Assembly (NCBI GenBank): GCA_021735645.1
Contig: JAIPGP010000020.1
Coordinates: 1-45,191, forward strand
DNA from: Candidatus Cloacimonadota bacterium
Lineage (GTDB): Bacteria; Cloacimonadota; Cloacimonadia; Cloacimonadales; TCS61
Length of the DNA: 45,191 nt
Direction: 5' to 3'
Below the pieces are notes generated by a model. It was not told the origin of the DNA and ran no database searches. It worked only from the letters and a program-made list of their open reading frames with translations. The position numbers were made by a program, and so were the translations under genes. How positions within the stretch are numbered: position 1 is the stretch's first letter; each line of letters starts with the position of its first letter. Positions 1,886 to 45,059 of the stretch are shown here, piece by piece.

Positions 1886-1931
1886 GTAGAGTAGAGACAG
1901 GCTCAGGCGATTCCATCGCCTGCCCCCCTCA

Positions 1932-1965
1932 TCAAACCGTGCATGCGGTGTTCCGCACACGGCTT
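1932..1965 (-). ncRNA. Group II intron domain V
   Basis: Minus-strand AAGCCGTG pairs with CACGGTTT (8 bp). A 2-nt TG bulge follows, then a TGCGG/CCGCA upper stem. The AGC catalytic triad is at the base. The terminal loop is AACA, not a GNRA tetraloop; the right-edge copy has GAAAA. Domain VI follows at about 1887-1930. Confidence 0.85.
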
Positions 1966-1976
1966 ACCGACAAAGT

Positions 1977-3278
1977 TCATCGAAAGCATTCGCGGCTGTC
2001 AACAAGCTTGTAAATTATTGGGTCAATTAAACCATATCTCTTGGTTAAAACCTCAAAAGCTCCACGGCGATAGAGCTTACCAACTCGCTGACTTTTACGC
2101 TTGTAGTATATCCTGAGTCTGTCCCAGAGATAATTTTCAAGCTTGAATCTCCCTCCATTGGAATAGCTTACTCCTGGAATGATGATATAATTCAACCATC
2201 CCCGCATTATAGAATTTAGTCCCTTAGAAACTGCATACGGATTTTTCCTACCATTGTATCGTAGATAGTCACCCACTTTTTGACGTATATTAATTATACT
2301 CTTTTTAGTTGGTGAAATCCTGAGCCACTTCTTGTTTTTATTGTAGGAACTCCATACATACCTAAATGTAAAGCCCAAGAAATTAAATGGCTCTTGCCTT
2401 GCATTCAGAAGGTGTGTTTTGTCCGTATTGATAGTCAGTTCCATCCTTTCCAAGATAGTATGTAGGTAATTCATACATTCTGCGGGCATACGATATCCCA
2501 TCAATATGAAATCATCGGCATACCTGACAATATCTATCTTGTACTTCTGGAATACACCATCCTTCCTCTTTACAGCTTTATCTACCAGATTCAGGTAGAT
2601 ATTAGCAAGTAGAGGAGAGATAACTCCACCTTGTGGAGTACCTTTACTGTTCTTCTTAAATTGTTTTTCCTCATATACTGGTGCTTTGAGCCACATTCGG
2701 AGCAATTTCAATATTCTGCTATCCGATATACGCTGCTCAACCAGTATCATTAGCTTATCATGAGGAATGTTGTCAAAGTAACCACTGAGGTCAGCATCAT
2801 AAACCTGAACTTTACCTTGTTTCAGGTTATCGCTGATGACAGTTATGGCATCATGGGCAGAGCGTTTAGGACGAAATCCGAATGAGCAGTCCTCAAAATC
2901 GGCTTCGAATATTGGCTCTATAACCATTTTACAGCACATCTGCACTATTCTATCTTTGACGGTTGGTATTCCCAACGGTCTCAGCTTACCGTTTGCTTTT
3001 GGAATAAACACTCTTAGAACAGGTTGCGGTTTGTAGGTTTTGGTTCTCAATTCTTCTGCTATTTCCGATAGATACTTCTCAACTCCATACTTAATAACAT
3101 CAGATATCTTCAGCTCGTCATAACCGGCTGCACCACCATTGGCTTTTACCCGTTTCCACGCTTCACGCATTAAGTATCCAACTGTTAATTTGTCATAGAG
3201 CATATAAAAGCAAAATTCGCTTTCCTGCTTGGCTTTTCGATATAATTTACGCTGAAAAAAGACGCAGTCGTTCCTCAT
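1977..3278 (-). CDS. Group II intron reverse transcriptase/maturase (5' frameshift)
   Basis: The intron-encoded protein copies spliced intron RNA into DNA and helps splicing. The RT fingers and palm are intact: RPLGIPTVKDR at 100-110, DLSGYFDNI at 163-171, TPQGGVISPLLANIYLN at 214-230 and the catalytic YADD at 253-256. A maturase/thumb region follows (LGFTFRY, GWLNY). No C-terminal HNH nuclease is seen. The ATG at 3278 is not the ancestral start. A GTG at 3327, with GAGAGG upstream, opens a frame that reads through MTDEERLRLF and fits the usual RT N-terminus, but it is one base out of frame at a run of six Ts (3255-3260). With five Ts the protein would be 449 residues. The copy may be decaying, or the extra T may be a sequencing error. 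Confidence 0.92.
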   Translation of the reverse strand: MRNDCVFFQRKLYRKAKQESEFCFYMLYDKLTVGYLMREAWKRVKANGGAAGYDELKISDVIKYGVEKYLSEIAEELRTKTYKPQPVLRVFIPKANGKLRPLGIPTVKDRIVQMCCKMVIEPIFEADFEDCSFGFRPKRSAHDAITVISDNLKQGKVQVYDADLSGYFDNIPHDKLMILVEQRISDSRILKLLRMWLKAPVYEEKQFKKNSKGTPQGGVISPLLANIYLNLVDKAVKRKDGVFQKYKIDIVRYADDFILMGYRMPAECMNYLHTILERMELTINTDKTHLLNARQEPFNFLGFTFRYVWSSYNKNKKWLRISPTKKSIINIRQKVGDYLRYNGRKNPYAVSKGLNSIMRGWLNYIIIPGVSYSNGGRFKLENYLWDRLRIYYKRKSQRVGKLYRRGAFEVLTKRYGLIDPIIYKLVDSRECFR

Positions 3279-3828
3279 CAGTCATATCCTGACGTCGCTT
3301 GCTTTCCAGATTTCTTTCATCAATCACAAATTACCTCTCTTTCTCGTAAATTTCTTTGAAGTAATGTCCCTTCGCTACGAATGATTTATGCTAATCAAAC
3401 ATCAAGCACTACTATGGACACCTCCGACTTCCTGCACATCCAGTCATCACTTCGGTTACCCTTATAGATGACCGTTTAGGGTTGCCGTCCTTGAAACGCA
3501 GGAGCTCCCAAGTTCATCAAATGACATTTTACAGGCACGCAATCAGTTAAAACCCCGACAGCCTCTAATGGTGCTTTTTCCTATTACTTCCCATTAGATT
3601 ACCGGTTTCATCATAAGTGAAAGACTGACCGACTGTGTTTTAATAACGAGGCTAAACCTGTTCACTTTCGTTACAGCTTACCTGCTGCTTAGGAGAGCTT
3701 CGATCTGTGCCTTACGGCTGCAGCCGTCTCCTTCACTTCCGGCTGAATAGGAAATTAGCCGGATTGGACTTTCACCAACTAACCTATCAACGCTTCTTGG
3801 CGCACCACTATTCAGTGTTCACTACTAT

Positions 3829-35471: not shown

Positions 35472-37430
35472 TTATTTCAATAAGACCATTTTGCCTGTGC
35501 TGGTATAGCGTCCTGATCTGACCTTGTAGTAATATAATCCACTGCTTACTGAGTGGTTATTATCATCCAGTCCATTCCAGATTGTCCGCTGTTCACCTGC
35601 CGCAACTCTGGCATTAACCAGTTGACGTATCATCTGCCCTTTCAGATTGTATATACTCAGGTTCACATCTGCGGCAGTTTTTACATTATAGACAATTTCC
35701 GTTTCAGGATTGAAAGGATTGGGATGATTTCCCAAAAGTTCAATATTTCCGGCGGCTATTTCATCTTCATCGCTGCCAGTGAGTGCTACAGTGATCACTA
35801 CTTCATCAGGATCACTGAAGAAGGTGCCATCAGAGACGGTTAGAGTAATGATATAATCAGTTTCTTCAGTAACTGCCGGAGCAGTGAAAACAGGATTAAC
35901 TATAGAGCTGCTGGAAAGAGTGATCCCTACCGGGGCAGTCCAATAATAAGAGAGGGCATCACCATTAAGGTCATAAGACCCGCTGCCATTAAGAGTTACT
36001 ACTTCCCCGGAAACCGCAGTTATATCATCTCCGGCATCTGCCACAGGTGCTGTAGCGGGAGCAATATTAATAGTAACCATTTCGCTCATATCAGATTCAC
36101 CCGTCACAAATAAAGCTGTCACCCAGAATAAATAAGTGCCATTAGGCAGGTTATTGACCATATAGCTTGGTTCATCAGGATCAGTAGTATCTTCCAGTAA
36201 ACCGTTATTATAAACATTAAATCCCAGTAAACTGCGATCTAATTCATTATGATCCCAGCTTAATAATACATCATTACCATTTAAAACCACTCCTGTAACA
36301 TCATAAGGTGCTGAAAGGTCTTCGTAGGGGAATAAACTAAATACTCCACCCTGTTGTTCATTAAAACTACTGCCGCCGGGATTAAGATTTGATAAATAGA
36401 AATAACCGTTAGCATATCCTGACCAGCCCCAATTGAAGTGGAAAAAACTTGTTCCCTGATAGCCATCCAGATTGAAAGCATGTCCATACCCTCCACCAAC
36501 ACCACTATAGATCAGCGGGTAACCGGCATCAAGGTCTGCTCTGATATAGGCTTCATAAGTGCTGGTAGAATAACTATCTTTTGCCCGGAAAGTTGCTCCA
36601 GGATGATAATCAAAATTTGCTACCATGGCATTACGTGCACTATAATTGCCATAACCAACCTGGGCACCGGAACCATCTGAGCCATAATCCATTTCTACTG
36701 CCACTCCGCAAGCCCACTGCAATTCTTTAGTTTCATAAGTAGCATAACTATTATTCATACTATCATAATCAAAATCTGTAGCACTAAAATCACAGCTTAT
36801 ATTTCCATATTGCGGATGATTATAGCTATGTGAACCAGTCCCGGTAGTCGGATGACCCCAGTAATACATTACCTGTGCCATAGATACTGCCACGCAGCCG
36901 GAATATACAAAAGGATTATTTTGCCCTGGTCCGCGTGGGCAATGCTGATTCCAGGGAGAGTCCTGATTCCAGTTACAGGTCAGAAGTGGAGACACATCCC
37001 GCAGATCACGAACAGGGGTAAATTCTTCTGAGGGCACCAGTAATCGCTGCCATTCTGCTTCAGTCTGCTCACCTGCTGCCAGATCATTAGTGCGGATTTC
37101 CGCCATCTGCCACTGCCATTCGAAGAACCAGTCCGCTAATTGCACCGGAGCAGTTGCCGGATCATAAATGCCTTCAAAACTGTATGCCAAGACCGGGACT
37201 GCCCGGTCGTCAGCAGAAATCATCACATAACCGCTATTATTATAATTAAATACATATAGATCAGCTTCTTCTGCACCGATCTGATAAAACCCTGTCCATT
37301 CCAGGTTTTCCATCCCCCCACGCTCTGCTATCATATTACCTGCCGCCAGTTGAGCATCTTCAATAGACACTGCTGCTGACCACAAAAATCCTACCCCCGC
37401 TATCAACATCAATAACATTAATTTCTTCAT
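35472..37430 (-). CDS. Secreted C10 family (streptopain-type) cysteine protease with sorting domain
   Basis: 652 residues: a signal peptide (1-19), a propeptide (about 20-140, VMISADDRAVPVLAYS), a C10 catalytic domain, a fibronectin III-like domain (about 390-475), a PKD domain (about 480-560) and a FlgD-like sorting domain (about 575-652, GNHPNPFNPETEIVYNV). The nucleophile is Cys179 in YSGCVAVSMAQVMYYWG and the general base is His317 in GYGHAFNLDGY. FHFNWGWSGYANGYF completes the site. The family cleaves proteins outside the cell, and the propeptide keeps it inactive until processing. Nearest start: ATG with GGAGTG upstream. Confidence 0.93.
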   Translation of the reverse strand: MKKLMLLMLIAGVGFLWSAAVSIEDAQLAAGNMIAERGGMENLEWTGFYQIGAEEADLYVFNYNNSGYVMISADDRAVPVLAYSFEGIYDPATAPVQLADWFFEWQWQMAEIRTNDLAAGEQTEAEWQRLLVPSEEFTPVRDLRDVSPLLTCNWNQDSPWNQHCPRGPGQNNPFVYSGCVAVSMAQVMYYWGHPTTGTGSHSYNHPQYGNISCDFSATDFDYDSMNNSYATYETKELQWACGVAVEMDYGSDGSGAQVGYGNYSARNAMVANFDYHPGATFRAKDSYSTSTYEAYIRADLDAGYPLIYSGVGGGYGHAFNLDGYQGTSFFHFNWGWSGYANGYFYLSNLNPGGSSFNEQQGGVFSLFPYEDLSAPYDVTGVVLNGNDVLLSWDHNELDRSLLGFNVYNNGLLEDTTDPDEPSYMVNNLPNGTYLFWVTALFVTGESDMSEMVTINIAPATAPVADAGDDITAVSGEVVTLNGSGSYDLNGDALSYYWTAPVGITLSSSSIVNPVFTAPAVTEETDYIITLTVSDGTFFSDPDEVVITVALTGSDEDEIAAGNIELLGNHPNPFNPETEIVYNVKTAADVNLSIYNLKGQMIRQLVNARVAAGEQRTIWNGLDDNNHSVSSGLYYYKVRSGRYTSTGKMVLLK

Positions 37431-37486: not shown

Positions 37487-37517
37487 TCACAAAATTATAC
37501 ACTCACTAATTTGACGG

Positions 37518-37709
37518 GAGAAGAGGAGAGGGATTGAGGGAATGAGGGAATGAGGGAGTGAAAAGGAGAAGAGGAGAGGGATTGAGGGAATGAGGGAGTG
37601 AGGGAGTGAAAAGGAGAAGAGGAGAGGGATTGAGGGAATGAGGGAATGAGGGAGTGAAAAGGAGAAGAGGAGAGGGATTGAGGGAATGAGGGATGAAAAG
37701 GAGAAGGGG
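37518..37709. repeat. 48-bp tandem minisatellite, about four units
   Basis: Units start at GAGAAG at 37518, 37566, 37614 and 37662, each 48 bp. A final unit, shortened to 39 bp, ends near 37700. Each contains GAGGAGAGGGATTGAGGGAA and two or three GAGGGAATGA/GTGA sub-repeats. It is non-coding and strongly purine-biased on the plus strand. Confidence 0.92.
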
Positions 37710-38179: not shown

Positions 38180-39520
38180 TCAGGAGAGGATTTGAGGGAG
38201 AGTGATCTGGAAAGTGGTTTCCAGGTTGGGTATGGAACTCAGGGTAATTTCTCCTTTGTGAGATCTGATGATCTGGCGGGAAAGAGCCAGTCCGATGCCG
38301 GAGCCACCGGTTTTAGTGGTGAAGAAGGGAATGAAAATATTCTGCTGGGCAGAAGGTGCTATGCCATGACCGTTATCTGTGAGTTTGATGATAGTAATTC
38401 CCTGGCTGCATACAGCAGAGAGCTGGAGGGAGGGAGCTGCTACGTCTTTAAGCGCTTCGAGAGAGTTTTTGATCAGATTTATAAAGACCTGCTGAAGTAA
38501 TGATTGATCAGCCAGGATTTGGACAGCAGGTTCTGGCATAATTATCCGGGGAGTGATCTGGCGGCTACAGAATTCTGGTTCAAAGAAGAGCATGGTATCA
38601 TTAATGAGTTGGTTAAGCGGAATGATTTTCAGTTCAGGTACTGGCAGGAGTGCAAGCTGGCGGAATTTTTGCACAAAGCTCATCAGATTTTTTGATCTGC
38701 GTGCGATAAGGTCGAGGGATTTTTTCACAGTTTCCTGGTCTTTATCGTTAGAAGCAGCAGAAATTTTAGGGATCATAGCCTGAGATAGTGAGGAGATAGG
38801 TGTAAGTGAATTCATAATCTCGTGGTTGAGCACCCGGATAAGTTTTTGCCAGGAAGCCATTTCTTTGGAGTCTAATTCAGATTTAATGCTTTTCATGGAA
38901 ACCAGAAAGCAGGTGGTATTATTCAGTGAGAATTTGTTTTTAGAGATGAGCAGTTCCTGGTTATCTGAGTTATCAGGTACAGAGAAGACTATCTGCTGCT
39001 GGTCAGGGATATTTTTCCAGGCAGAGATGATATTTTGATATTCATGAGGATAAGCCGTGATATATTCATGTCGAGTGCCTAGTATTTTCTGGCAGAGCAC
39101 ATTAGTATAAAGCACTTTTCCGGTATCTTCATAGACGATGATCGCGAAAGGGAAATGTTCCACAATATTATTCATCAGCAGCACACTAAGAGCATTTGTG
39201 TCTCTGGTGCGGATAATTATCTTCTGCAGATAGCCAAGCTCCTGGTTCAACGCCTGCAATTCATCAGCAAAACCTGGAATATGCAGATCGATAGCGGAAT
39301 CTGTATCATTGTAGGAACGGATAAGCAGAAGGGTATTATCCAGAATGCGTTTTGTGTACCCGGGAATTCCTATTAAAATCAGTAAAGTGATAAGCAAGGC
39401 AATCCAGCCAGCCAGATAATCCTGGTTCACAAAAAAGAAGACAGTCGCTGCCGCTGTAACGCACATAGTGAGGTTTGCAGGCATAATAAAGCGAGTGATA
39501 GAGCCAGTTTTATAAGCCAT
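38180..39520 (-). CDS. Sensor histidine kinase (NtrB/NtrY-like)
   Basis: 446 residues: two membrane helices (about 12-31 and 37-57) with almost no periplasmic loop, a linker coil, a PAS-like domain (about 110-210, FPFAIIVYEDTGKVLYTN), a HisKA region with LNHEIMNSLTPI (His233) and an ATPase domain (NLIKNSLEAL, LTDNGHGIAP, FFTTKTGGSGIGLALS). It should sense a membrane or cytoplasmic signal and phosphorylate its partner. Its ATG overlaps the end of the response regulator gene by 11 bases, so the two are co-translated. The tiny loop argues against a large external ligand. Confidence 0.93.
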   Translation of the reverse strand: MAYKTGSITRFIMPANLTMCVTAAATVFFFVNQDYLAGWIALLITLLILIGIPGYTKRILDNTLLLIRSYNDTDSAIDLHIPGFADELQALNQELGYLQKIIIRTRDTNALSVLLMNNIVEHFPFAIIVYEDTGKVLYTNVLCQKILGTRHEYITAYPHEYQNIISAWKNIPDQQQIVFSVPDNSDNQELLISKNKFSLNNTTCFLVSMKSIKSELDSKEMASWQKLIRVLNHEIMNSLTPISSLSQAMIPKISAASNDKDQETVKKSLDLIARRSKNLMSFVQKFRQLALLPVPELKIIPLNQLINDTMLFFEPEFCSRQITPRIIMPEPAVQILADQSLLQQVFINLIKNSLEALKDVAAPSLQLSAVCSQGITIIKLTDNGHGIAPSAQQNIFIPFFTTKTGGSGIGLALSRQIIRSHKGEITLSSIPNLETTFQITLPQILS

Positions 39521-40880
39521 ATTTTTTTAATCTCCTGTAAAGTGAAGTGCGGTTTATGCCCAGCAGTTTTGCTGCCCTGGACATGTTGCCTTCTGCTTTA
39601 AGCAGAGCTTCACGCACGAGTTTTTCTTCGGCAGCGTCTATATTCAAGCTCTGCAGGCGCAAAGCTGAGCCTTTGGTAGTAGATTTCAGAGAGAGATCAT
39701 CAGCGGAAATAGTATTTGTAGCGCATAAGATCACAGCCCGTTGGATGATATGCTTCAGTTCTCTGACATTTCCCGGGAAATCATAATCTGCCAGTCGGTT
39801 CATAGCAGATTGCGAGCAGCCTTTGATATTTTTATGATATTTCTGGTTGAAGATTTGCAGGTAATATGAGCAAAGCAGGGGAATATCCTCTTTTCTCTGG
39901 CGCAGTGGCGGGATATTAATCTCAATAGTATTAAGCCTATAGAGCAGATCACGCCGGAATCTGCCCTCTTCCACCGCTTCATCAAGGTTCGTGTTCGTGG
40001 CACAGATCAGGCGAATATCTATTGATGAATATTTATTGGAGCCTAAGGGACAGGAGCGTCTGTCTTCCAGCACTTTGAGCAGTCGGGTTTGCTGATCCAG
40101 GGGAAGATTACCTATTTCATCCAGAAACAGTGTACCGCCAGAAGCAGCGATGATCTTGCCTATCCGGTCTTGAGAAGCTCCTGTAAACGCACCTTTTACG
40201 TGTCCAAAAAGTTCTGAATCAAATAGCTCACGGTTCACAGCTCCCATATCCACTGTGAGAAACACATGCTCAGCCCGTGCAGAATGGCGATGAATTGCCC
40301 GGGCTATCAGTTCCTTGCCAGTGCCATTTTCCCCGGTGATAATGATCTCTGCATCAGTGGGAGCAACTTTTTTGATAGTGGCAAATAGCTCAGTTATCTG
40401 AGGTGAATTTCCAATAATATCCTGAAACTTAAGATTTATCTGGTTATTGAACAAGTCCCGCTGGGTGGAGTGGATAGCATTTTGCCGGCAGGAACGAGCA
40501 TAGCGGACAGCAGCATTCACGGTGGCAATGATCTTTTCATTTTGCCAGGGTTTGGTGATAAAGTCATAAGCACCTGCCCGGACAGCTCTCATCGCCTTTT
40601 CTATATCACCATAAGCTGTGATGAGAATCACCGGAGTATCCGGAGATATATGTCTGATCTGCTGCAGCCAGTGGAAGCCCTCTTCGCCACTAATAGCATC
40701 TTTAGAAAAGTTCATGTCCAGTAGAATAACATCAAATTGACTGCTTGCCAGCAGTTGAGGAATCTGCTGCGGGTCTGAAAGTGAAATCAATTCATCACTG
40801 ATAGATTCCAGCAGCACCCGCAGCGTAAACAGAATATCTGCATCATCATCAATAATCAGAATACGAGCATCTGAGATCAT
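39510..40880 (-). CDS. Sigma-54-dependent response regulator (NtrC family)
   Basis: 456 residues. The receiver domain has the acidic pocket Asp11-13, phospho-acceptor Asp55 (VILLDMNF) and Lys110. The AAA+ domain has Walker A GENGTGKE (183-190), the sigma-54 contact GAFTGA (230-235), Walker B GGTLFLDEIG and an arginine finger region FRRDLLYRL. A Fis-type HTH closes the protein (NMSRAAKLLGINRTSLYRRLKK). All motifs needed for enhancer-dependent activation are intact. It is transcribed divergently from the RDD gene, whose promoter is a sigma-54 consensus. AGGAG lies seven bases before the ATG. Confidence 0.95.
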   Translation of the reverse strand: MISDARILIIDDDADILFTLRVLLESISDELISLSDPQQIPQLLASSQFDVILLDMNFSKDAISGEEGFHWLQQIRHISPDTPVILITAYGDIEKAMRAVRAGAYDFITKPWQNEKIIATVNAAVRYARSCRQNAIHSTQRDLFNNQINLKFQDIIGNSPQITELFATIKKVAPTDAEIIITGENGTGKELIARAIHRHSARAEHVFLTVDMGAVNRELFDSELFGHVKGAFTGASQDRIGKIIAASGGTLFLDEIGNLPLDQQTRLLKVLEDRRSCPLGSNKYSSIDIRLICATNTNLDEAVEEGRFRRDLLYRLNTIEINIPPLRQRKEDIPLLCSYYLQIFNQKYHKNIKGCSQSAMNRLADYDFPGNVRELKHIIQRAVILCATNTISADDLSLKSTTKGSALRLQSLNIDAAEEKLVREALLKAEGNMSRAAKLLGINRTSLYRRLKKYGL

Positions 40881-40939: not shown

Positions 40940-40945
40940 TGTCAA
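40940..40945 (-). promoter_or_regulatory. TTGACA box upstream of the response regulator gene
   Basis: Minus-strand TTGACA 59 bases before the ATG at 40880. It lies just beside the first 16-bp activator-like site (40957-40972), so bound regulator could also affect its own transcription. Confidence 0.35.
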
Positions 40946-40956
40946 TCTTTTTATTA

Positions 40957-40972
40957 TGTTCGATATGGAACA
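40957..40972 (+). promoter_or_regulatory. Putative enhancer site 1 for the NtrC-type regulator
   Basis: TGTTCGATATGGAACA, an imperfect palindrome with TGTTC/GAACA arms around a 6-base centre, 77 bases upstream of the -24 element. The same 16-mer recurs with one change 21 bases downstream. Confidence 0.65.
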
Positions 40973-40977
40973 CAATA

Positions 40978-40993
40978 TGTGCGATATGGAACA
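40978..40993 (+). promoter_or_regulatory. Putative enhancer site 2 for the NtrC-type regulator
   Basis: TGTGCGATATGGAACA, 15 of 16 bases equal to site 1. The 21-base offset is two helical turns, so both sites face the same side of the DNA, as is usual for cooperative dimers of NtrC-family activators. Confidence 0.65.
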
Positions 40994-41048
40994 CTATAAA
41001 TCATGTGTATAAATAGCTTATACCATATATTTCAGTTAGTTATCGATA

Positions 41049-41064
41049 TGGCACGTTTATTGCT
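41049..41064 (+). promoter_or_regulatory. Sigma-54 (RpoN) promoter of the RDD genes
   Basis: TGGCACG-TTTA-TTGCT matches the sigma-54 consensus TGGCACG-N4-TTGCW at every fixed base, with GG (41050-41051) and GC (41062-41063) ten bases apart. Transcription should start near 41075, 39 bases before the ATG. A short GCTGC-CTG-GCAGC hairpin (41085-41097) lies in the leader just before the ribosome binding site. Confidence 0.88.
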
Positions 41065-41113
41065 CTATATTTAGATAAAAAGAGGCTGCCTGGCAGCAAA
41101 AGGAGTGTGGTCA

Positions 41114-42952
41114 ATGAATAATGAGAAAGTTTTTAAGGCAGGAGCAGGACTAAAAAGGCTGACAGCTTACATTGTGGATATTCTGGTTTTGATAGCTATT
41201 TATATTCCCATCGGACTGCTTTTTAAAAATGCACTGACAAATCTTCTGATACACGGCACAGGCTCAGGAGCTTATATTCTGCTGACCCTTGCTATATTTG
41301 TGTTACCATCGATCTATCTGATCTTGATGTGGCATTTTGTGGGAGCTACTGTGGGCCTGCTGGTTTTCAGACTCAGGTTAGTGGAAATTAGTACAGGAAA
41401 GAAGCCGGCACTTTTTATTGCTTTATGGCGTTATATGATCTTTTTACTGTCCTGGTTTTCACTTTTTATCGGCTTTCTGTGGATGTTGTGGGATAGTCGG
41501 CAGCAGAACTGGAGTGACAAACTGGCAGGCACAGTGGTTATCCCCAGAGGTGAAGAATTACCCGGCGCAGCAAGTGAGAAAGATATCAGAAACTGGAAAA
41601 GGGGCAAGATACTGGTGCTAGCTTCCGTATTTGTTCTCATCATAGTGAATGTGATCTGGCAATATGAAGTTCCGCTTTCGGCAGGAGCATTAGCCACTTT
41701 GGGAACTTATGGACCCGAAGAGAATCCTGGCGGGAACGGCTTTTATGAATTACCCTGCTTTGGAGCAGGCTCAGACGTTGACGCCTTTGAGCTGGGATTG
41801 AAAGAAATTGAGAAGGTCAATGCTTCCACAATGGCACTATATAAATCAGCAGGATTCTGGGGACAGAAATATGATGTAGAAATGGAAAGCATCTATTATA
41901 ACAGTCTGGGAAATGACCTTGATACTTTAATGACAATTTCAGATGCGGAAGATTTTTGGGGAGAAATAGCTGCCAACCGGGAGATGATTGAGCGAAATTT
42001 CCAGAAATATGATTATCTGGAAGAGCGGTATAATCGACTTGGCGATTATGAATACTATCAAACCCGCCTGTTTCCTGATATCTTTGTAGAAATACCGATC
42101 TTTTTACCTCTGGTGAAATACCAGCGTCTCTACTGCGCCAATATTTGTCTGCAGTATATGGATAACAACCGCGAGGAGGCAATTGCTAATTACCTTAACA
42201 GTATCCGGATTGTAACACATTTGATGGAGCAAAGTGATTATCTGATCACAAAACTGATTGCTATCGTCCTTTATATTATCAGTCAGGATACTTGTGCAGA
42301 ACTGATCAATTATGAAAAAGAGATTGATCCCGGACTTGCTGAGGCTATCTTGAACCTGCCGGAATTATCCGCTGCAGCCAAAAGCTTCCGCAAAGCTGTA
42401 TATGGTGAATTCAATTTGGGTGCCTCATATTTAGTGAGACTGATAGAATCACCACAGGGATTTCAGGATTATAAGATCGATAAAGAAGATGTGCAAAAGG
42501 CAAACCCTCCCTTTATCAAAGCTAATCAGATATTGAATATAGAGTTTAAGTTCTGGGAATTATCCGCTGAGCTTTCCGAATTACCACAATGGCAATTTAA
42601 TCAAGAATATCAGCATAAAATATCAGTGAAAATCAACTGGCTGGAATACATCAATAATCCTCTGGGAGTAATACTCGCAAATCAGCATACCACTCCTGTT
42701 TACACATCTTATTTTGTAATTGCCCAGGATCTGGAAATCCGTGATAATCTGCTTAAAGCTGCCTGTGCTATCAAATTGAATAACATTGAGCGGTCAGAAA
42801 TCCCCGACTATCTGGAAGCCAATAAAGAGAAATGGGGGAATCTCTATCTGAATGAAGCTCTGGACTGGAACGCTGAAACGAGTGAACTCTTCTTTCGCGG
42901 ACCTTTGCAGGAAGATAAGAAAGAACAGAGAAAAATATTTCTTGCTAACTAA
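41114..42952 (+). CDS. RDD-domain membrane protein with large non-cytoplasmic domain, paralogue 1
   Basis: 612 residues. Residues 1-155 form an RDD domain with four hydrophobic segments: GAGLKRLTAYIVDILVL, GATVGLLVFRLRLVEISTGK, and ...WDSRQQNWSDKLAGTVVIP. A further helix (about 163-182, ILVLASVFVLIIVNVIW) leads to about 430 mostly helical residues with no family I recognise. RDD proteins are membrane proteins linked to transport in a few cases. ATG 41114 has AGGAG eight bases upstream and is preferred to the GTG at 41105. It lies under the sigma-54 promoter and before a 600-residue paralogue. The role is unknown; a signal-induced envelope function is my inference. Confidence 0.82.
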   Translation: MNNEKVFKAGAGLKRLTAYIVDILVLIAIYIPIGLLFKNALTNLLIHGTGSGAYILLTLAIFVLPSIYLILMWHFVGATVGLLVFRLRLVEISTGKKPALFIALWRYMIFLLSWFSLFIGFLWMLWDSRQQNWSDKLAGTVVIPRGEELPGAASEKDIRNWKRGKILVLASVFVLIIVNVIWQYEVPLSAGALATLGTYGPEENPGGNGFYELPCFGAGSDVDAFELGLKEIEKVNASTMALYKSAGFWGQKYDVEMESIYYNSLGNDLDTLMTISDAEDFWGEIAANREMIERNFQKYDYLEERYNRLGDYEYYQTRLFPDIFVEIPIFLPLVKYQRLYCANICLQYMDNNREEAIANYLNSIRIVTHLMEQSDYLITKLIAIVLYIISQDTCAELINYEKEIDPGLAEAILNLPELSAAAKSFRKAVYGEFNLGASYLVRLIESPQGFQDYKIDKEDVQKANPPFIKANQILNIEFKFWELSAELSELPQWQFNQEYQHKISVKINWLEYINNPLGVILANQHTTPVYTSYFVIAQDLEIRDNLLKAACAIKLNNIERSEIPDYLEANKEKWGNLYLNEALDWNAETSELFFRGPLQEDKKEQRKIFLAN

Positions 42953-43022
42953 AGCTTTGATTCCAATACTGGGATTGAGAATAATAAATATTGATTTTTA
43001 AACCATGAAATGAGGAGATTTT

Positions 43023-44825
43023 ATGAGTAATACCGCTGGAAGTTTTGGTTTTGGGATGAAACGTCTGGTTGCCTTTGTTATTGATTTTATGTTGCTATTC
43101 TGTGTCTATATGATGGCAGGAGAAGCAGTCAATGGAAAGGGATTAGCCCTGATCATATTAGTTACTGTGCTGATCATCCCGGCTGTTTATATGATACTAT
43201 TCTGGGCTTTAGCTGGAGCTACACCGGGGATGCTGATATTCCGATTGCGTTTACGTAAGATACATACCGGCAGGAAACCGGATTTACTGACTGCACTCTG
43301 GCGATTTATCATATTCCTTATCTCCCTGTTTTCCTTTTTCCTGGGATTTCTCTGGCAGTTTTGGGATAGCCGGCGCCAGATCTGGGCAGACAAGCTTTCC
43401 GGATGCGTGGTCACTGCCAAAGGGCAGGAAATTCAGGAAACTGAAACTGCTGGTGATCTTAAGAAATGGCGGGTTGGTAAGATTCTGGTTTATATTTCTG
43501 CCCTGATATTTGTGCTCTTTAATGTAGTAATCCAATATACAGAACCAATATTACCGGAAACTGAATCCTGGTTAATTGATTACAGCACTGAGTCAAACCC
43601 GCAGGATAATGGTTATTACCAATTGCTCTGTTTTGCTGTTGAAAGCGATGTAGATCCCTATGAGCAAGGTTATCAAATGATCAAGGATGCGAATGATTCT
43701 ATTATGGAATATTATAGATCGCGGGAAGCAGGAAAAAAAAGAGACGAGATGCCACCCCAACCAGACCTTAGTTTTACGCTGGATATCGATTTCAATACTT
43801 TGATCTCCATCTGGCAGGCAGAAGATTTCTTTGCTGCCTTACTAGCAGAGCAGGCATTTATCAAGTCAAATATGGAGAGATTAAGTTATCTGCAAAAACG
43901 CTATTACCGGATTGCAGATTATCCCTATATCAGCACAAGACTCTTCCCTGAAATGTCAGTGATATCTCCACCAATGACTGCGCTGGTCAATTATCATCGG
44001 CTTTTTTTAACCAATGTCTGCCTGGAATATCTCACGGGTGATAAAGATGATGCCATCGATATGCTGCTGAAGACCTTTGATATTAATAATCGATTACTGG
44101 AAGAGAGCGATTCCATGATCATGAAACTTACAAGCTGCGTTTTGATGCAGCTCTCGCAGGATACCTGCGCCCGATTGCTCAATTATAAGAATAACCCAGG
44201 TCCTGTTTGTGAAAAATTGCTCAATGGGATTGATATGAGTCGTGAAGCTCTCAGCTTTCGTAATGCCTATGTCTATGAATTTAATATAGAAGCTTCTTAC
44301 ACAGTTTCCATGCTGGATTCCCCTTATGGTTTTATTGATTATAAAGTTGATCTGGAAGATATAAGAAATGCTAATCCGCCCTTATTGAAAGCAAGCCAAA
44401 TAATCAATTTCAGTCTTAGAGCATTTAAGCAATACATAGCCGTTTCTGAGTTGCCATTTCCTCAATTTACCCGGGAAATCTCTAACCTTAGTTTACCAAA
44501 ACCCCACTTCATTGAATACTTCAATAACCCCTTAGGAATTGCCCTGGAAATGACAAGAGTAGATAGCTTTTATAGTCGCTATATGGTTATGATCAGGGAC
44601 CTTGAACTGAAAAACAATTTGCTGCAGGCAGCGGCTGATATTAAACTTCAGCAGATTGCCTTAAGTGATGTACAATTATTACTTAATAATAATAAAGATA
44701 AATGGCATAATCTATATACTGGTGAACCATTAATCTGGGATGAAGCAAGCCAGGAAATATCATATACTGGACCATTACAGAATGATTATGCTGATAAGCG
44801 GAAGCTAAAATTAAATCTGAATTAA
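43023..44825 (+). CDS. RDD-domain membrane protein with large non-cytoplasmic domain, paralogue 2
   Basis: 600 residues with the same plan as the preceding gene: an RDD domain (FGFGMKRLVAFVIDFMLLF; GATPGMLIFRLRLRKIHTGR; WDSRRQIWADKLSGCVV), an extra helix (about 158-176) and a 420-residue domain. The most conserved parts of the pair are SQDTCARLLNY, SFRNAYVYEFNIEASY, DSPYGFIDYKVDLEDIRNAN, NPLGIALE, and the C-terminal LYTGEPLIWDEASQEI with TGPLQND. A TGAGGAG site precedes the ATG. It probably shares the sigma-54 transcript, since the 70-base gap has no terminator and no TTGACA. The function is unknown. Confidence 0.82.
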   Translation: MSNTAGSFGFGMKRLVAFVIDFMLLFCVYMMAGEAVNGKGLALIILVTVLIIPAVYMILFWALAGATPGMLIFRLRLRKIHTGRKPDLLTALWRFIIFLISLFSFFLGFLWQFWDSRRQIWADKLSGCVVTAKGQEIQETETAGDLKKWRVGKILVYISALIFVLFNVVIQYTEPILPETESWLIDYSTESNPQDNGYYQLLCFAVESDVDPYEQGYQMIKDANDSIMEYYRSREAGKKRDEMPPQPDLSFTLDIDFNTLISIWQAEDFFAALLAEQAFIKSNMERLSYLQKRYYRIADYPYISTRLFPEMSVISPPMTALVNYHRLFLTNVCLEYLTGDKDDAIDMLLKTFDINNRLLEESDSMIMKLTSCVLMQLSQDTCARLLNYKNNPGPVCEKLLNGIDMSREALSFRNAYVYEFNIEASYTVSMLDSPYGFIDYKVDLEDIRNANPPLLKASQIINFSLRAFKQYIAVSELPFPQFTREISNLSLPKPHFIEYFNNPLGIALEMTRVDSFYSRYMVMIRDLELKNNLLQAAADIKLQQIALSDVQLLLNNNKDKWHNLYTGEPLIWDEASQEISYTGPLQNDYADKRKLKLNLN

Positions 44826-45059
44826 ATAAATTATAGCGGCTGTCAGGTTTTGCTATATTTCTAAAGGTATATTGTCCATAGTAAGTGCCTGATATTGGGT
44901 AGTGGAGGTTTACCTGAGAGAAGCATTTGACTGCAATCCAGAGACAATTGAACTTTCATTTGACGAACCCTTGCAGGATGTGAGGGTGCGTACCCAGCGC
45001 ATCCTTGCTCTGGGAAAGTGGAGCATTAAAAGTGAAATGTAATGTAAGATATTCAACCA
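44826..45059. other. Intergenic region with gene remnant and dispersed hairpin repeat
   Basis: It holds a remnant of a third RDD-paralogue C-terminus (44893-44982). GGTGCGTACCC next to a CCCAG-(12 nt)-CTGGG hairpin (44992-45013) is an inverted relative of the GGGTACGCA elements. An AATGTAATGTAAGATATTCAACC motif (45036-45058) sits directly against the second intron. No terminator is seen after the RDD pair. Confidence 0.6.
44893..45042 (+). pseudogene. Remnant C-terminus of a third RDD-type paralogue
   Basis: The frame after a TGA at 44890 reads VEVYLREAFDCNPETIELSF, then DEPLQD. It lines up with the C-termini of the two RDD proteins (LYLNEALDWNAETSELFFRG, then PLQED; LYTGEPLIWDEASQEISYTG, then PLQND). 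About 14 of 24 positions equal paralogue 1, with no gap. Nothing upstream of 44890 continues the match. From about 44983 to the stop at 45040 the frame runs through the intergenic repeat. It is too short to act as a gene and best read as a decayed duplicate. Confidence 0.72.

Follow-up and report, generated by a model that had tools for sequence, protein, structure and literature searches.

What does a sigma-54-dependent two-component switch control when it faces two membrane proteins of the RDD family? The question is raised by a locus in a 45,191-nucleotide stretch of DNA (the window; contig JAIPGP010000020.1, positions 1 to 45,191, assembly GCA_021735645.1) from a Candidatus Cloacimonadota bacterium, where the genes of a histidine kinase and an NtrC-type regulator lie divergent from two paralogous genes, RDD1 and RDD2. 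Each RDD protein carries an RDD membrane domain and a helical C-terminal domain (CTD). A sequence-only reading of the window had proposed a self-contained switch for this pair and knew of no described system of this make-up. That last claim was not supported for the switch, which is paralogous to a module that is widespread and usually has a HlyD-MacB/FtsX exporter as its divergent neighbour. The make-up of the switch itself is not new; the new part is the target swap, with the RDD pair in place of the exporter. We consider it highly probable that this diverged paralogue of a conserved exporter-type module here drives the operon of the two RDD-CTD proteins. Statements on the whole genome refer to pattern and family searches of its 3.77-Mb, 151-contig, 95%-complete assembly. 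The features of the locus are as follows.

38180-39520, minus strand: sensor histidine kinase, 446 residues, with apparently two transmembrane helices and a very short loop, a PAS-like middle and HisKA/HATPase domains
39510-40880, minus strand: NtrC-type response regulator, 456 residues, with a receiver, a sigma-54 AAA+ domain with GAFTGA and a Fis-type helix-turn-helix
40957-40972, no strand assigned: putative upstream activator site 1, TGTTCGATATGGAACA, beginning 92 bp upstream of the -24 element
40978-40993, no strand assigned: putative upstream activator site 2, TGTGCGATATGGAACA, 21 bp from site 1
41049-41064, plus strand: sigma-54 (-24/-12) promoter TGGCACGTTTATTGCT, TGGCACG-TTTA-TTGCT, an exact consensus
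41117-42952, plus strand: RDD1, with an RDD membrane domain (PF06271), a further transmembrane helix and a helical CTD of about 430 residues
43023-44825, plus strand: RDD2, a paralogue of RDD1, 70 bp past RDD1
44905-45043, plus strand: remnant, C-terminal fragment of a third RDD-CTD gene (VEVYLREAFDCNPETIELSFDEPLQD...)

A switch related to exporter modules

About 20 related genomes each yielded a paralogue in a search with the window kinase, with about 35% identity to it, and the genome of the window itself yielded another (contig C76, 6945-8189). Nearly every kinase paralogue examined has a partner regulator with 48-52% identity to that of the window; regulators at this level were present in 25 of the 124 other Cloacimonadota genomes, and none of the 124 held a closer one. 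The family pair usually lies divergent from a HlyD gene, downstream of which come genes for an ABC ATPase and for MacB/FtsX permeases (Pfam HlyD, ABC_tran, MacB_PCD and FtsX), and it was a HlyD gene that was faced in every full-layout locus examined. The exporter loci carry two TGTNCG-N4-CGNACA sites in tandem at a spacing of 22 bp, and from the first of these to the sigma-54 promoter downstream there are 91-93 bp. The window locus shares with this module a homologous kinase-regulator pair and tandem palindromes at a fixed distance from the promoter, but no adjacent HlyD, ABC ATPase and MacB/FtsX genes were found in the window, where the apparent targets are the RDD-CTD genes.

This layout was turned into a scan rule that calls for a sigma-54 site and two 16-mers resembling TGTTCG-N4-CGAACA, 20-23 bp apart, with the first 89-97 bp upstream. 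The rule was matched in the window (at 92 and 21 bp), in 13 other genomes and at the exporter operon on C76. No further match was found in 1.33 Mb of fetched sequence, in which the loci partly overlap, and there were zero matches in 60 simulated windows, 2.7 Mb in total. Of all the evidence for the palindromes being activator sites, and for the promoter that points at RDD1 being what they act on, this comparison across loci is the strongest. Comparison of the paralogous loci at the sequence level showed the type of switch, its candidate cognate sites, its predicted sigma-54 promoter and its paralogy to the exporter module. The earlier proposal that the kinase pair turns on the RDD proteins was strengthened with respect to a dedicated sigma-54 switch, by the layout of 14 paralogous loci, by the window pair being the sole site pair of its kind and by the presence of rpoN; as an interpretation it was only partly supported.

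In the genome of the window, the exporter goes with the C76 paralogue, with HlyD near 34.7-36.0 kb and the sites at 36069-36106, and the tail of the exporter operon adjoins the C76 kinase-regulator pair. This operon (G000:C76 8389-35974; L082, L161, L162) is very long: many consecutive MacB/FtsX-type permeases separate HlyD from a TolC-like gene, and at its head stand a sigma-54 promoter and tandem sites of the exporter type. Outside the phylum, some homologous regulators of Bacteroidota and Pseudoalteromonas have similar half-sites ahead of them, and there the divergent neighbours are ABC transporter genes in most cases; Hymenobacter has the same divergent order of HlyD, ATPase and permease.

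The exporter modules of Cloacimonadota, Bacteroidota and Pseudoalteromonas resemble the window locus in gene order and gene overlap, in the apparently two-helix kinase with its short loop, in the tandem palindromes and in their distance from the -24 element. The window differs from them in its RDD-CTD target, in the inner arm GGAACA of its sites, in a spacing of 21 rather than 22 bp and in the central loop of the regulator. Sigma-54 activators normally read GAFTGA in this loop; the window regulator does so, but in all the relatives compared the loop is G[AS][FY]TDA (L082-L091, L133-L160). Many of the G[AS][FY]TDA regulators nevertheless sit at sigma-54 promoters. In the regulator tree, the window copy split off early, on a long branch that adjoins the exporter-type clade, and the joint clade had a support of 98/96.

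Within one genome, two sigma-54 two-component cassettes that are paralogues of each other share their promoter geometry but differ in output, which makes the rewiring of a regulon by target swap directly open to study. The comparison also yielded TGTNCG-N4-CGNACA as the predicted tandem binding site of a kinase-regulator family found in Cloacimonadota, Bacteroidota and a Gammaproteobacterium. In the open-licence literature, we found no paper that links RDD proteins to control by sigma-54, nor any on sigma-54 in Cloacimonadota or on an NtrC-MacB/HlyD module. Control of COG0577 (FtsX-like) permeases by sigma-54 has been proposed from promoter predictions (PMC12316311), so the exporter arm was at least partly anticipated.

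Promoter, sites and a proposed mechanism

The consensus sigma-54 promoter noted earlier was confirmed. It is the only exact -24/-12 match in the window and one of three in the genome; with at most one mismatch, the consensus had 33 genome sites compared to 4 for a reversed control pattern. Transcription is predicted to start at about 41074-41076, which gives a leader of about 40 bases with a good ribosome site, AAAGGAG, ahead of the ATG at 41117; RDD1 has an alternative GTG start at 41105. The two upstream sites had been described as near-identical tandem palindromes. Their positions and spacing stood, and the two 16-bp sequences differ by one base, but each palindrome is imperfect, with site 1 matching at 7 of 8 half-site positions. 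The near-palindrome pattern had 4 matches against 0.40 expected in shuffles, and exact matches to TGTNCNATATNGNACA occur genome-wide only at the two window sites.

The regulator is divergent from RDD1, as had been described, and belongs to the NtrC class by its Pfam domains (PF00072, PF00158, PF25601 and PF02954) and its intact GAFTGA; its receiver aspartate lies within LLDMNF. The kinase gene is joined to it, as also proposed, by an overlap of 11 bp, and the kinase has the H-box VLNHEIMNSLTPISS. On the target side, the features of the class are present as upstream sites, a -24/-12 promoter and rpoN, which had been named as a check and was found as one copy in a genome with 12 strong sigma-54 activator domains. 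The two transmembrane helices of the kinase and the very short extracytoplasmic loop between them were read from the sequence and the family alignment. The "almost loop-less" sensor of the earlier reading agrees with this, but the alignment showed the short loop throughout the kinase family, so it is no peculiarity of the window locus.

Together, these features suggest the following mechanism. The kinase would sense a membrane or envelope condition; membrane or internal stress as the signal is a guess. Its conserved residues and those of the receiver suggest that it would phosphorylate the regulator, which may then bind the tandem sites at 40957-40993, as the sequence, spacing and position of such sites in paralogous loci support. 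Through GAFTGA, the regulator would remodel the sigma-54 RNA polymerase at 41049-41064, in agreement with the promoter sequence and the presence of rpoN. RDD1 would be transcribed, and RDD2, 70 bp downstream, by read-through. The RDD proteins would then place their helical CTD, probably in the periplasm, on an anchor of several transmembrane helices.

Other explanations for the locus

The alternative that survives best is cross-talk, in which the exporter-type regulator from C76 also binds the window sites, the RDD pair is a member of the exporter's regulon and the local kinase and regulator do no more than modify the response. The helix-turn-helix recognition regions are near-identical (RTSLYRRLKKYGL against RASLYRRLKRYDL) and the half-sites TGTNC...GNACA are the same. 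However, both window sites differ at an inner position, GGAACA compared to CGNACA in most exporter sites, which would fit insulation, and the local divergent regulator is the simpler partner; we regard cross-talk as unlikely. It is quite improbable that the sites mainly autoregulate the kinase and regulator genes while the RDD operon is mostly transcribed from another promoter, with a minor sigma-54 link. Regulators that do not face an exporter (the C76 copy and those of G001, G002 and G015) do keep a single palindrome about 70-85 bp upstream of the regulator start, without a sigma-54 site, as would suit autoregulation. Set against this, the window has two palindromes and, directed at RDD1, an exact sigma-54 site at the distance typical of the family. 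That the kinase-regulator pair landed by chance beside RDD1, or was deleted in the sister species G001, and is functionally unconnected with the RDD proteins would agree with an arrangement seen in one genome only and with the absence of the entire kinase-regulator-promoter-RDD1 block from G001, but it is very unlikely because useless elements would be expected to decay, and here promoter and sites are intact, aimed at RDD1 and in the family geometry.

Several observations weigh against the preferred reading, that of a diverged exporter-type switch driving the RDD operon. The proposed regulatory link to the RDD pair is deduced from sequence evidence, namely position and sites. The kinase-regulator-RDD-RDD order, whose recurrence in relatives the sequence-only reading had named as its test, was found in none of the 124 other Cloacimonadota genomes. 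RDD-CTD proteins are present in 8 of these, as orphans: within the limits of the contigs, none of their genes has this kinase-regulator pair nearby. The G001 locus that carries RDD2 likewise lacks the kinase, the regulator, the sites and the promoter, which shows that RDD2 can exist without this switch. No separate sigma-54 site precedes RDD2, which could be transcribed from another promoter than RDD1; matches to sigma-70-like promoters are at chance level. Finally, a tree that includes Bacteroidota copies leaves the position of the long-branch window regulator unsettled, so that duplication within Cloacimonadota and transfer from another phylum are indistinguishable; direct acquisition of the kinase-regulator pair from another phylum was not borne out.

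The RDD proteins and their C-terminal domain

RDD1 and RDD2 are 41% identical, and their RDD domains score 64.6 and 71.8 bits, well above the PF06271 cut-off of 24.1. They are the only two PF06271 copies in the genome and differ from the RDD family in the extra transmembrane helix and the helical domain of 430 residues. The C-terminal fragment of a third gene indicates that the tandem RDD-CTD array once had at least three copies. Directly after this fragment lies a group II intron end (RF00029, 45060-45143, minus strand), followed by the end of the contig. The sister species has an RDD2 orthologue 78.5% identical to that of the window, within an 82%-identical stretch that extends from window position 42894 rightwards. 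The left end of this stretch reads KKEQRKILLAY-stop, compared to KKEQRKIFLAN-stop at the end of RDD1. This 11-codon scar indicates that RDD1 once preceded RDD2 in G001 and was lost there. At the level of sequence, the scar shows the RDD1-RDD2 pair to be older than the split from G001; it bears on the RDD pair only and not on the age of the kinase or regulator.

The domains of 420 residues that had been called unknown correspond to an undescribed helical domain of about 430 residues, for which no family model was found in Pfam, NCBIfam, PHROGs or PADLOC. AlphaFold predicted the CTD to be all-helical apart from a small beta element at its C-terminus, with pLDDT for the most part above 85-90. No relatives of RDD-CTD proteins among solved structures were found by sequence (best E 0.65) and none in the PDB by fold (best E 0.11, on a model with pLDDT 83). 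A weak match to SspE (E 0.011) was treated as chance, and a reading as a defence system was dropped as no match supported it. A profile of the CTD alone found the domain in 14 of 369 sampled Gammaproteobacteria (about 4%; best E 1.7e-39; one of the 14 marginal), which defines it as a domain present in two phyla. The Gammaproteobacterial proteins are mostly 415-480 residues long, with one N-terminal transmembrane helix and no RDD domain, and those tested had no family model in Pfam or NCBIfam. Their loci (L179, L181, L182, L183, L186, L188 and L191) have varied neighbours. A search of 15 genomes with other RDD genes did not find the CTD, and no match was found on plasmids. The single N-terminal helix of the Gammaproteobacterial form suggests that the CTD lies in the periplasm and that the last transmembrane helix of RDD1 and RDD2 is the equivalent anchor; in RDD2 this helix is preceded by the positive stretch KKWRVGK.

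Described RDD proteins include a Na+(Li+,K+)/H+ antiporter of Halobacillus (PMC5996927) and SppI of B. subtilis, an inhibitor of SppA (PMC7568657). No sppA-like neighbour was noticed in the window. The regulators of Bce modules are OmpR-type and not sigma-54 activators. In these modules (BceRS-BceAB; PMC3023708, PMC10314905), a short-loop kinase of the intramembrane type is coupled to a transporter under its control, which has a large extracytoplasmic portion; the exporter paralogues are alike by resemblance, and unlike the window locus, Bce modules have no RDD proteins. The window kinase, with its short loop, also resembles these intramembrane-sensing kinases, a speculative hint at its signal. 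Reasoning from the exporter module, we speculate that the RDD pair is most probably an envelope-stress protection or ion-flux device, which may also feed back on the short-loop kinase. Its role as a functional stand-in for the exporter, in which an envelope-protection or flux-sensing device made of a multi-helix RDD anchor and a periplasmic helical domain would have been coupled to the short-loop kinase by the target swap, is possible but doubtful.

On the left side of the locus, G001 keeps the same neighbour, a C10-like peptidase gene (up to window position 37496). Between this gene and the kinase, the window has a 48-bp minisatellite (37517-37693, 3.7 copies, 98% match), which adjoins the synteny break with G001. 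Near the left contig end lies a group II intron (1886-3781, minus strand) with a reverse transcriptase open reading frame (1977-3278).

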